23,924 nt of DNA, taken from positions 1-23,924 of IMG/VR virus record IMGVR_UViG_3300046471_000025, one strand, 5' to 3'. This DNA comes from a virus. Under the pieces are notes generated by a model, which saw only the letters and a list, made by a program, of their open reading frames with translations, was not told the DNA's origin and did not search any database. Both the position numbers and the translations under genes were made by a program. How positions within the stretch are numbered: the first letter of the stretch is position 1; every line of letters starts with the position of its first letter. Below, piece by piece: positions 2,675-22,890 of the stretch.

Positions 2675-2752
2675 GTCAGCCGCGCGGGTCATGGAAGCGC
2701 ATATTTCCGCCCGGTACGTCGGGAGCTTTATGCGCGCCAGGCGTGGCAACCC
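2675..2752 (+). ncRNA. Candidate structured RNA, copy A
   Basis: A 78-base element that folds into nested stems. P1 is GCCGCGC (2679-2685) with GCGTGGC (2741-2747). P2 is GCGCATA (2697-2703) with TATGCGC (2729-2735). P3 is CCCGG (2710-2714) with TCGGG (2719-2723), closed by a UACG tetraloop. The joiner between P1 and P2 contains UCAUGGAA. The element ends in AACCC and lies 32 bp before the start of the 64-aa gene. Copy B at 3028-3105 aligns without gaps and preserves the stems by compensatory changes. It may be a cis-acting leader; I do not recognise a known riboswitch class. Confidence 0.6.
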
Positions 2753-2783
2753 AATCAACCTTTACGCCTCTGAGGATGCGGAC

Positions 2784-2978
2784 ATGACTAAAAAGATTGA
2801 ATACCGGGTGCGCCCGGTGCAGCGCTACGTAATCACGCGATACGAGCAAGAGATTCAGCCGGACGGCGGATTCAGCGCGGGATGTGTGTCGCTCGGTGAA
2901 TTCGACAACCACGATGGCGCAATTGATATAGCGCAGCGCCTTACGGCGACGGAAGAGGGCGCCGAGTTCGCTCAGTAG
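2784..2978 (+). CDS. Hypothetical protein, 64 aa
   Basis: The frame is open from 2673, but I choose the ATG at 2784 (protein begins MTKKIEYRVRPVQRY). The upstream part of the frame runs through the RNA element, and a GAGG lies 9 bases before this ATG. The product is small and probably a beta-rich fold with alternating strands (YRVRPVQRYVITRY), followed by an acidic helix. No catalytic motif or membrane segment is visible. It stands between the two copies of the structured RNA. Function unknown. Confidence 0.6.
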   Translation: MTKKIEYRVRPVQRYVITRYEQEIQPDGGFSAGCVSLGEFDNHDGAIDIAQRLTATEEGAEFAQ

Positions 2979-3027
2979 GGCATTGCAGCACTGACTTCAT
3001 CACCCCAGGCGCAGGTGGGAAAACAGC

Positions 3028-3105
3028 GTCAGCTACGCGGCTCATGGAAGCGTGACGCTCCGCCCGGTACGCCGGGAACTCGACACGCGGCAGGCGTAGC
3101 AACCC
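3028..3105 (+). ncRNA. Candidate structured RNA, copy B
   Basis: Gap-free homologue of the element at 2675-2752. P1 is GCTACGC (3032-3038) with GCGTAGC (3094-3100). P2 is GCGTGAC (3050-3056) with GACACGC (3082-3088), with one A.A mismatch. P3 is CCCGG (3063-3067) with CCGGG (3072-3076) around UACG. Relative to copy A, P1 changes C-G to U-A and G.U to A-U. P2 changes C-G to U-A, A-U to G-C and A-U to C-G. UCAUGGAA, the CAG before P1' and the terminal AACCC are conserved and mostly unpaired. It lies just upstream of the ribosome-binding site of the 62-aa membrane protein gene. Confidence 0.6.
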
Positions 3106-3126: not shown

Positions 3127-3315
3127 TTGAAAGCAATTGTCGCGATCCTGTCTATTTTCGTCACTGCCCCCATTTGGTATTTCCTGCTCTACAAAATACT
3201 TCAGCTCGTCGGCGCGACGGATGTTATGTGGCTTCTGTACTGGGTATACCTGCCGGTCTGTGTGATGGTGCAAATCATCGCGAAGCTGGCCGACGTCGGT
3301 GAAGCCAAGAAGTAG
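3127..3315 (+). CDS. Small two-helix membrane protein, 62 aa
   Basis: Starts at TTG 3127, with CGGAG about 8 bases upstream; no ATG start fits better. It has two predicted transmembrane helices (residues about 4-22 and 34-51) and a short charged C-terminus (VGEAKK). Its topology is compatible with a small holin, a superinfection-exclusion protein or an unknown envelope protein, but the position just before the terminase genes does not decide between these. It follows copy B of the structured RNA, which may control it. Confidence 0.6.
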   Translation: MKAIVAILSIFVTAPIWYFLLYKILQLVGATDVMWLLYWVYLPVCVMVQIIAKLADVGEAKK

Positions 3316-3327
3316 CAACCCTCTTTC

Positions 3328-3380
3328 GCGCGCTCCCGGTCAGGGCTGGAACCCGGATCACATACGGGCCGGAAGCGCGC
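3328..3380 (+). promoter_or_regulatory. Large dyad upstream of the TerS gene
   Basis: The arms at 3328-3339 and 3369-3380 form a 12-bp stem with one C.A mismatch (outer GCGCGCT/AGCGCGC, inner CCGG/CCGG). Inside is a smaller CCCG/CGGG hairpin (3352-3355 with 3365-3368). There is no T-run, so it is not an intrinsic terminator. It may be a structured leader or a protein-binding dyad, possibly part of the packaging start. Confidence 0.4.
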
Positions 3381-3392
3381 ACCCATCAAAAG

Positions 3393-3420
3393 TAGACGGA
3401 TTTAGACGGAAATAGACCCA
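3393..3420 (+). repeat. Three 10-bp phased repeats before TerS
   Basis: TAGACGGA occurs at 3393-3400 and 3403-3410, and TAGACCCA at 3413-3420, ending directly at the ATG of the next gene. The exact 10-bp period puts the copies on one face of the helix. Small terminase subunits of headful phages bind sites in or near their own gene, so this is a candidate pac site. Duplication of the weak CGGA ribosome-binding region is the alternative. Confidence 0.45.
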
Positions 3421-3708
3421 ATGGCTAAAGGTGCCAAGACTGGCGGCCGAGTCAAGGGCACGCCGAACAAGAACACGGCTGACATTCGCGCGCTCGCACA
3501 GAACTACGCGCCCGAGGCGATCGCCATGCTGGCCACGATCCTGACGACGAGCGAGAACGATTCGGCTCGCATCTCTGCGGCGAAGGAATTGCTTGATCGC
3601 GGATACGGCAAGTCGACGCAGGCTGTCGAGATGACGGGCAAGGATGGCAACCCGCTCGAAGTGACGCAGATCGTGCGCCGGATTGTGGACCCTGCTGGGG
3701 GCGCTTAA
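3421..3708 (+). CDS. Candidate terminase small subunit, 95 aa
   Basis: Short protein with a basic, glycine-rich N-terminus (KGAKTGGRVKGTPNKN, residues 3-18), followed by helices with the AAKELLDRGYGK segment around residues 54-65. This architecture is common in small phage proteins encoded directly before TerL. The small subunit recognises packaging DNA and regulates the motor. At 95 aa it is shorter than P22 gp3 (162 aa). Its TAA overlaps the TerL ATG (TAATG). Only a weak CGGA is seen before the ATG. The assignment rests mainly on position and on the basic N-terminus. Confidence 0.6.
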   Translation: MAKGAKTGGRVKGTPNKNTADIRALAQNYAPEAIAMLATILTTSENDSARISAAKELLDRGYGKSTQAVEMTGKDGNPLEVTQIVRRIVDPAGGA

Positions 3709-4943
3709 TGTCCGATCTCGTCATTGATACGCCGCGGGTGTACGTGCCGCTGCTCGGGCCGGCTCGCTACAAGGGCGCGCACGGCGGGCGCGGCTCGGGC
3801 AAGTCTCACTTCTTTGGCGAAATGCTGATCGAGCGGTCGATCATGGAAAAGACGGACGCCGTTTGCGTTCGTGAAGTGCAGAAGTCGCTGAAGCAATCGG
3901 TCAAGAAGCTGCTGGAAGGCAAGATCGAGGCGCTGAATGCCGGCGCCTACTTCGACGTGCAGGACGCACAGATCAAGTCGACGCATGGCGGCCTGATTAT
4001 CTTTCAGGGTCTGCAGAATCACACGGCTGACTCCATAAAGTCGCTGGAAGGCTTCGACATCGCATGGGTAGAGGAAGCGCAAAGCGTCAGCCAGCGATCG
4101 CTAGACATGCTGCGTCCGACGCTGCGGAAGCCTGGCTCTGAACTGTGGTTCTCGTGGAATCCGAGCGCGGCAACCGATCCAGTCGACGCGCTGCTACGTT
4201 GCGTAGAGCCGCCGCCCGGTTCTGTCATTGTTGAAGCGAACTACATGGACAACCCGTGGCTGCCTGACGAACTGCGGATTGAAATGGAGTACGACAAGCG
4301 CCGCGATCCGGACAAGTACGCGCATATCTGGCTTGGCGCATACCAGCAGAACAGCGAAGCGCGCGTGTTCAAGAACTGGCGCATCGAGGAATTCGAACGG
4401 CCGGCAGGAACGATTCACCGGCTCGGCGCGGATTGGGGCTTCTCTGTCGATCCGTCGGTGCTGATCCGCTGCGACATCGAGGGCAACCGCCTGTATGTCG
4501 ACTACGAGGCGTACATGGTCGGCTGCGAGATCGTGAACCTGCCCGAACTGTTCATGGGCGTTCCCGACGCCGAGAAATGGCCTATCACGGCTGACTCTGC
4601 GCGCCCGGAAACGATCAGCCACATGCAGAAGAACGGCTTCCCGAAGATCCGGCCAGCCATCAAGGGTGCGAAGTCGCTGGAAGAGGGCGTCGAGTTCCTG
4701 AAGTCGTTCGACATCATCGTTCATCCGCGCTGCAAGCACCTGATCGACGAACTGACGCTCTACAAGTACAAGGAAGACCCGCTGACGGGCGCCATCCTGC
4801 CGATGCTCGAAGACAAGGACAACCACGTCATAGACGCGCTGCGGTACGCCTGTGAGGGCGCACGACGCGCCGGCAAGGCTCCGAAACCATCTAAACCTAT
4901 TGTCCGCCGCACGATTGTTGGTGCTGGTGGCTGGCTCGCATAA
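3708..4943 (+). CDS. terL: Terminase large subunit (TerL)
   Basis: ATP-driven DNA packaging motor and nuclease. The ATPase domain has Walker A GGRGSGKS (residues 26-33), Walker B with catalytic acids in FDIAWVEEA (116-124), and the coupling motif FSWNPS (148-153). The RNase H-like nuclease domain has acidic ligands at ADWGF (D242), TADSARPE (D296) and the C-terminal DNHVIDALRY segment (D376 and neighbours). All key residues are present, so it should be active. At 411 aa it is shorter than P22 gp2 (499 aa) and looks like the PBSX/Terminase_3 type. It is coupled to the preceding gene by TAATG and abuts the portal gene. Confidence 0.95.
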   Translation: MSDLVIDTPRVYVPLLGPARYKGAHGGRGSGKSHFFGEMLIERSIMEKTDAVCVREVQKSLKQSVKKLLEGKIEALNAGAYFDVQDAQIKSTHGGLIIFQGLQNHTADSIKSLEGFDIAWVEEAQSVSQRSLDMLRPTLRKPGSELWFSWNPSAATDPVDALLRCVEPPPGSVIVEANYMDNPWLPDELRIEMEYDKRRDPDKYAHIWLGAYQQNSEARVFKNWRIEEFERPAGTIHRLGADWGFSVDPSVLIRCDIEGNRLYVDYEAYMVGCEIVNLPELFMGVPDAEKWPITADSARPETISHMQKNGFPKIRPAIKGAKSLEEGVEFLKSFDIIVHPRCKHLIDELTLYKYKEDPLTGAILPMLEDKDNHVIDALRYACEGARRAGKAPKPSKPIVRRTIVGAGGWLA

Positions 4944-7787: not shown

Positions 7788-8504
7788 ATGCAAATCGAAG
7801 ACAACACGCCGCAAGAAAACGTCACGCCTACGGAGCAGGAACAGGCGCAACAGCCCGCAGAAGTAGTCTCTGAACCGGGCGCAGAGCAAAGCACGCAAGC
7901 CGCCGAGCAGCCGCAGCAGGACAAGCCCAAGAGTGATTGGGTCCAACGGCGCATCGACCAGCTTACGCGTGAGAAACACGAGGCACTTCGACGTGCAGCC
8001 GACGCAGAAGCGCGATACAGCCAGGGTCAACCGCAAGCCGAGCAGCACAACGGCCAGCCGATGACGCCTGACCAGATTCGCGCCGAGGCGAAGAAGCTCA
8101 TTCAGCAGGAAAAGTTCGACGCCGACTGCAACAAGGTTTTCGAGTCTGGCGCGACTGAGTACGGCCGCGAATGGGATTCGTCGCTTCGCACGTTCCAGAT
8201 GCTGGGCGGCGCCCCCGCTGAGTTCCTGGAAGCCGTCACGGCGATGGATCACGGCCACAAGGTGCTTCACGCCTTGGGTCAAGACCCCGAAGCCGCTGAA
8301 CGTCTGTTGTCTCTCCCCCCGTTGCGCATGGCGCTTGAACTGGCCCGCCTTGAGGCGAAGGTCGCTCAAGCCACTCCCCCGAAACAAGTTTCCAAGGCGC
8401 CCGCACCGATTACCCCGGTTGGCGGGAAGTCCGCGCCAGTCGAACCCGCTGAGTTCGGGTCGACGGCCGAGTACATCGCCTGGAAGAAACGAAACAAAGG
8501 CTGA
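7788..8504 (+). CDS. Capsid scaffolding protein
   Basis: Directs coat assembly and is removed or ejected before DNA packaging. The 238-aa protein is Gln/Glu/Ala/Pro-rich and low in hydrophobic residues. It has a coiled-coil segment near 51-77 (WVQRRIDQLTREKHEALRRA), a long helical middle, and a basic C-terminus (EYIAWKKRNKG), as in P22 gp8 where a charged C-terminal helix-turn-helix binds coat. Its place directly before the coat gene supports the call. The ribosome-binding site is poor, so the start at 7788 is the least certain point. P22 gp8 is 303 aa. Confidence 0.85.
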   Translation: MQIEDNTPQENVTPTEQEQAQQPAEVVSEPGAEQSTQAAEQPQQDKPKSDWVQRRIDQLTREKHEALRRAADAEARYSQGQPQAEQHNGQPMTPDQIRAEAKKLIQQEKFDADCNKVFESGATEYGREWDSSLRTFQMLGGAPAEFLEAVTAMDHGHKVLHALGQDPEAAERLLSLPPLRMALELARLEAKVAQATPPKQVSKAPAPITPVGGKSAPVEPAEFGSTAEYIAWKKRNKG

Positions 8505-22729: not shown

Positions 22730-22890
22730 GTGTTCGCTATGGGAACGCTAGGTGGTCATTTAGCGTTCGGCTACAGTAACGCTAAGCCTGTGGATAACTT
22801 TTAAGCGTTCGCTCTGAGTAACGCTAGAAAATGCTAGCGTTACGCCAGCCGAACGCTAAACCCCCGTAGCGTTACTCTAGCCGAACAGAA
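22730..22890. repeat. Iteron cluster, five copies of a 24-bp unit
   Basis: Consensus TAGCGTTCGGCTANAGTAACGCTA. Copies 1-3 read on the plus strand (22730-22750, degenerate and shorter; 22761-22784; 22803-22826). Copies 4-5 read on the minus strand (22835-22858; 22867-22890, one degenerate end). Each full unit has TAGCGTT and AACGCTA arms separated by 10 bp. Neighbouring copies of the same orientation are 34, 42 and 32 bp apart, close to whole helical turns. This is the pattern of a Rep-bound plasmid origin; control of the adjacent gene by the same sites is also likely. Confidence 0.85.
22789..22797 (-). promoter_or_regulatory. Perfect DnaA box
   Basis: TGTGGATAA on the plus strand is the exact complement of the consensus DnaA box TTATCCACA. 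It lies between iteron copies 2 and 3. Host DnaA binding next to iterons is a standard feature of theta-replicating plasmid origins. Confidence 0.8.

Follow-up and report, generated by a model that had tools for sequence, protein, structure and literature searches.

RNA-based processive antitermination is known from phage HK022 and its close kin. In the cryo-EM structure of HK022 putRNA, A3-G7 is paired with C15-U19 while U21-C25 provides a third strand, stem I closes at A9-G35, and stem II begins at G36; the RNA is bound at the β′ zinc-binding domain beside the RNA exit channel, where R77, L78 and K79 are among the residues named as contacts, and it suppresses pausing and termination with no phage protein required (PMC9378689). 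By our comparison, an H-type pseudoknot with a covarying helix S1 can be drawn for putL, for putR (L161 29455-29500) and for five other put-like sites (L292-L296), so that all of them except putL itself extend the cryo-EM finding, which was made on putL. The lambda Q/qut and N/nut systems also render transcription of phage operons resistant to terminators, the outcome proposed below for the RNA element described here, but they need a phage protein, and qut works as DNA, at the late promoter, whereas the element is an RNA and, in P22 and HK022, is encoded kilobases from the start of the operon. The phi29 pRNA is another structured phage RNA, and the element is encoded near packaging genes in the stretch analysed here, but it is without any Rfam match and is untied to terminase genes across its family.

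That stretch, the window, comprises positions 1-23,924 of the virus record IMGVR_UViG_3300046471_000025 (23.9 kb). Its head region is P22-like, with terS, terL, portal and major head protein genes, and the locus of interest has the order gene A, copy 1 of the element, gene B, copy 2, gene C, a hairpin, and terS. The gaps between genes in which the copies lie measure about 150 nt, and each RNA copy takes up most of its gap. The features, all on the plus strand, are as follows.

2422-2634, plus: gene A, 70 aa, without family, 5′ of copy 1, retained in relatives
2645-2752, plus: RNA element copy 1, full extent, from the covariance-model match and the repeat with copy 2
2650-2677, plus: copy 1 H-type pseudoknot, the 5′ domain
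2650-2653/2663-2666, plus: copy 1 S1, CGCA/UGCG
2655-2660/2672-2677, plus: copy 1 S2, GGCACG/CGUGUC
2667-2671, plus: copy 1 L3, ACAAC
2678, plus: copy 1 junction, one unpaired A between pseudoknot and hairpin, an invariant column in alignments A1 and A2
2679-2747, plus: copy 1 long hairpin
2679-2685/2741-2747, plus: copy 1 P1, 7 bp
2687-2689/2736-2738, plus: copy 1 P1b, 3 bp
2690-2696, plus: copy 1 bulge, CAUGGAA
2697-2703/2729-2735, plus: copy 1 P2
2710-2714/2719-2723, plus: copy 1 P3 with UACG loop
2784-2978, plus: gene B, 64 aa from the ATG at 2784, 3′ of copy 1
2998-3105, plus: RNA element copy 2, full extent, from the covariance-model match
3004-3030, plus: copy 2 pseudoknot
3004-3007/3016-3019, plus: copy 2 S1, CCCA/UGGG
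3008-3012/3026-3030, plus: copy 2 S2, GGCGC/GCGUC
3020-3025, plus: copy 2 L3, AAAACA
3032-3100, plus: copy 2 long hairpin, with P1 at 3032-3038/3094-3100 and inner helices at the copy 1 positions +353
3127-3315, plus: gene C, 62 aa, TTG start, 3′ of copy 2; the product looks like a membrane protein
3421-3708, plus: terS, terminase small subunit, PHROG matches
3708-4943, plus: terL, terminase large subunit, PHROG matches

A first-pass annotation of this DNA had aligned 78 bases of the two copies without gaps (2675-2752 with 3028-3105). That alignment is correct (61/78 identical), but the actual repeat is longer, at 105 nt, again without gaps (2648-2752 with 3001-3105, 75% identity). Folding predicts the same long hairpin for both copies, with a 1x2 internal loop between P1 and P1b and a pyrimidine-rich one between P2 and P3. 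The pair changes described earlier for P1 (C-G to U-A and G.U to A-U) and P3 (G.U to G-C) are present in the copies, as are the three given for P2 (C-G to U-A, A-U to G-C and A-U to C-G), but the P2 account omitted a pair that is broken (U-A to A.A). Also missed were the 5′ pseudoknot domain with its helices S1 and S2 and one more P1b pair that changes with compensation (G-C to C-G), and no mechanism was proposed. Between the copies, the second pair of S1 changes from G-C to C-G, while in S2 an A-U pair becomes G-C and the terminal G-C of copy 1 is replaced by A.A in copy 2. Apart from this A.A at the end of S2 and the one in P2, the helices stay paired across both copies. The folding energy of the single copies is unremarkable (z -0.7 to -1.5), so the case for RNA structure rests on comparison.

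For the window's own group, the sample consisted of 80 terL-related viral loci, 41 of which carry the element, its 3′ end lying 364-1329 nt upstream of terL at the 32 loci measured. A covariance model, R1, was built from 17 of these loci with the window copies left out. In its alignment, 93.7% of cells are paired, versus 74.5% when shuffled and 28-43% with slid partners; 17 of the 29 pairs show compensatory change, and the covariation score is 0.481 versus at most 0.077 for slid structures. The first pass had suggested searching phage genomes with a covariance model of the two copies; R1, which holds neither, matches copy 1 (83.7 bits, E 2.8e-17), copy 2 (85.2 bits, E 1.2e-17) and the relatives at these loci. 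The covariation test was then extended to a combined alignment of 32 sequences, in which, with rows placed by the model and so biased toward the structure, 94.0% of cells are paired versus 64.8% in shuffles, both sides change, with compensation, in 23 of 25 modelled pairs, and the score is 0.632 versus at most 0.091 for slid structures. S1, the pseudoknot helix that cannot be held in a covariance model, was scored separately: it forms in 30 of the 32 rows, whereas combining strands from different rows gives 55% and shuffling 13%. AAC closes the strand that follows S1′ in 31 of the 32 members.

Homologues with broken stems, named in the first pass as evidence that would speak against an RNA, were looked for, and the stems were found retained instead: the homologues maintain all of them through compensatory changes and frequent G.U pairs. 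The early reading of the repeat as an RNA rather than a protein or DNA repeat is thereby upheld, and the element is, on these sequence comparisons, nearly certainly a real structured RNA family. The Rfam check, also suggested at that stage, gave no family matching the element in Rfam 15 at gathering or permissive thresholds, and the family is apparently undescribed, being absent from Rfam 15, from the annotations examined, and from the open-access papers found. A variant with CGUAAG in place of the UGGAAG bulge occurs in L017 (3944-4051), L005 (172-277), and L134 and L143 (1501-1611), which suggests two alternative loop modules.

Records of the window's terL-related group have one RNA copy each. 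The window's count of two reflects an additional cassette of element plus small gene, copy 1 with gene B, that is absent from its close relatives, in which the order may be gene A, element, gene C (L035) or gene A, element, hairpin, terS (L002). The statement that the element stands just before a small gene holds for both window copies (genes at 2784-2978 and 3127-3315) but is not general, as in several relatives another hairpin and terS follow directly, with no small gene next.

Beyond this group, querying cultured phages by Blast with the window element gave nothing useful, and the relatives in P22 and HK022 were reached only through a topology descriptor combined with a covariance model. 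Model R2, which contains no enterobacterial sequence and hence none from HK022, matches HK022 at 39762-39858 (L161; 27.8 bits, E 2.9e-4), between the lysis genes and terS, and confirms a descriptor match at 39767; the few further descriptor matches in HK022 and the window are apparently due to chance. Blast from the HK022 element then extends the family, with identities of 90-100%, to over 150 phage records, among them P22, HK97, HK620, Sf6, CUS-3, ST64T and BTP1. The P22 copy lies at 40188-40315, after rha (L165 2508-2606). Copies in enterobacterial phages are mostly unannotated or lie beneath a hypothetical protein, and in P22 and HK022 a conserved structured RNA thus stands unannotated in the late operon. 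The BTP1 transcript STnc6030 is excluded as a candidate for the element, being transcribed antisense to the tailspike region (PMC7067206). Positions 43000-48502 of lambda hold no copy.

In Burkholderiaceae, 13 of 398 genomes have a match, most of these belonging to a divergent class with the pseudoknot CCCCAGCCGGCGGUGGG...AACACCGGCA. The annotated copies are mostly in prophages, where they precede genes for terminase, tail fibre or baseplate or follow a TerS-like gene; in Pandoraea eparura an intrinsic terminator is followed directly by the element and then by terS. Viral contigs were searched with a degenerate pattern that fixed S2, part of S1′ and AAC, and model R3 gave at least 63 matches among those listed for the 82 loci so found. 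Because of what the pattern fixed, only P1 and the 5′ strand of S1 are independent evidence there: among the matches listed, P1 forms in 65 of 87 dereplicated copies (shuffle mean 26) and the S1 5′ strand pairs in 67 of 87 (shuffle mean 24). Neighbours of the environmental copies include genes for DNA polymerase, Cas4-type exonuclease, DNA helicase, primase/helicase, MazG, terminase and head-tail adaptor, and the genome searches add copies in operons, chromosomal or of mobile elements, that contain TraI_2, R2K ATP-grasp, uracil-DNA glycosylase, RecJ or SRAP genes. The element is on the sense strand and mostly intercistronic within one operon; in P22, HK022 and the window group its place is in the middle of the operon or late. 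Contexts across the family are operon-wide rather than gene-specific.

With its conservation, fold, orientation and operon placement established, the element can be compared with put RNA (putL, putR; HK75, HK639, phiEt88). Both are phage RNAs in which an H-type pseudoknot, whose third strand is A-rich and precedes S2′, is followed by a one-nucleotide junction and then a long imperfect second stem, in the same order of parts. The third strand of put, UAAAC (U21-C25, engaged in a minor-groove triplex), would have its counterpart in the equivalent loop of the element, ending in AAC in all but one of the 32 members aligned. Moreover, the β′ zinc-binding domain of Burkholderiaceae hosts retains C70/C72/C85/C88 as well as R77, L78 and K79, and so has the residues given as put contacts. 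The differences are also clear: the junction nucleotide is A in the element and G in put, L2 has 2-4 nt rather than 0, and the second stem is longer, with the UGGAAG bulge and a pyrimidine loop. The element lies mid-operon, in late or early operons, whereas put lies just after PL/PR, and the element is found together with Q and, in HK022, alongside put. With filters off, R3 leaves putL unreported and putR without a score in HK022 28150-29650 (best anywhere 0.1 bits), and the descriptor, composed after the put paper, makes a match to putL that is not independent. Homology to put is therefore unsupported, membership in put is not claimed, and the shared topology could be convergence.

We infer put-like action from how the parts are arranged, from the AAC strand and the single-nucleotide junction, and from the host β′ residues, and control of transcription elongation by the nascent RNA is the best explanation of the element, although our confidence in it is evenly balanced. 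Each copy, as about 100 nt of nascent RNA, would act in cis on the polymerase that is transcribing the phage operon. The RNA would fold while leaving the polymerase and dock beside the RNA exit channel, for put at the β′ zinc-binding domain, and the docked polymerase would resist pausing and termination over the genes downstream, in the window the small genes and the terS-terL-head operon. Such docking and antitermination are consistent with contexts that span terS/terL, tail fibre, baseplate, adaptor, replication and mobile-element operons. Against them stand the want of put homology, the co-occurrence with Q, the distribution of terminators, and the context of one chromosomal copy (L300).

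Regarding Q, it should already render late transcription terminator-resistant, and P22 and HK022 have both the element and Q in the same phage, which excludes the element as a replacement for Q. A PF06530 search matched 0 of 25 records, missing even PBR31, which has a gene annotated as Q, and is thus uninformative on Q presence; a homologue of the PBR31 Q was found in only one of the genomes examined. Regarding terminators, three of the four copies that the model found in chromosomes or mobile elements are followed by an intrinsic terminator within 37-55 nt, which favours antitermination, versus 3 of 61 environmental copies among the matches listed (about 1 expected), 1 of 14 prophage copies and 0 of 32 terL-linked copies, so that these last three sets show no general terminator enrichment beside the element. 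The L300 copy (7826-7945) has intrinsic terminators on both sides and no close downstream sense gene; antitermination does not readily explain it.

An effect at the level of the mRNA, in which the element marks or blocks RNase processing between genes or tunes translation of the next gene so that segment stability or output differ, is less likely: its usual intercistronic position fits this, as do the Shine-Dalgarno sequence and start codon that many members have within about 20 nt downstream, but many relatives have no close start codon and another hairpin next, the downstream genes are unrelated, and the conserved parts share no pairing with the ribosome-binding site. It is distinctly improbable that the element works in trans, as a small RNA or protein-binding RNA that is excised from the operon or produced next to it and has its effect elsewhere. 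The compact autonomous fold and the terminator-flanked L300 copy would suit such a role, but most copies lie inside operons without their own promoter or terminator, as promoter matching at the window copies also indicates, with no own promoter found there, and the conserved positions are located in structured loops.

A packaging RNA or pac/cos-linked element serving the terminase, in the manner of phi29 pRNA, is very doubtful despite the position upstream of terS in the window group and P22-like phages, as in other members the neighbours are genes for tail fibre, baseplate, DNA polymerase or exonuclease or those of mobile elements, and many phages with closely related terL lack the element. 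A terminase-linked role is rejected on these contexts, the family not being restricted to the terminase neighbourhood. That the copies are a DNA feature, a recombination or protein-binding repeat whose inverted repeats merely resemble RNA, is scarcely credible, for although element and small gene are gained or lost as a cassette at the window site, the frequent G.U pairs, the crossing pseudoknot helix, the conserved non-palindromic loops and the single orientation relative to the operon all argue otherwise.

If the element does control elongation as put does, RNA-based antitermination would be a common strategy, found in P22, HK97, Sf6 and many environmental phages, and could be tested directly in standard laboratory phages with the existing put assay. 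More tentatively, and at less than even confidence, the family may represent a large unrecognised class of RNA-only transcription processivity elements in phages and mobile elements of Proteobacteria, including the late operons of P22, HK97 and HK022, with put as a small branch or a convergent case. Even with another mechanism, a conserved 100-nt RNA in the P22 late operon with no RNA annotation in the records examined needs explanation.

Two other features of the window deserve mention. A second conserved hairpin lies at 3320-3395 (GCGCGCUCCCGG...CCGGAAGCGCGC), between gene C and terS; hairpins of this type are directly 3′ of the RNA element in several relatives, and one is retained in L040, where the element is lost. 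It is possibly another RNA or a packaging site. At 22759-22883, direct and inverted repeats of 26-32 nt are clustered around TAGCGTTACGC / GCGTTCGGCT, possibly forming an operator array.
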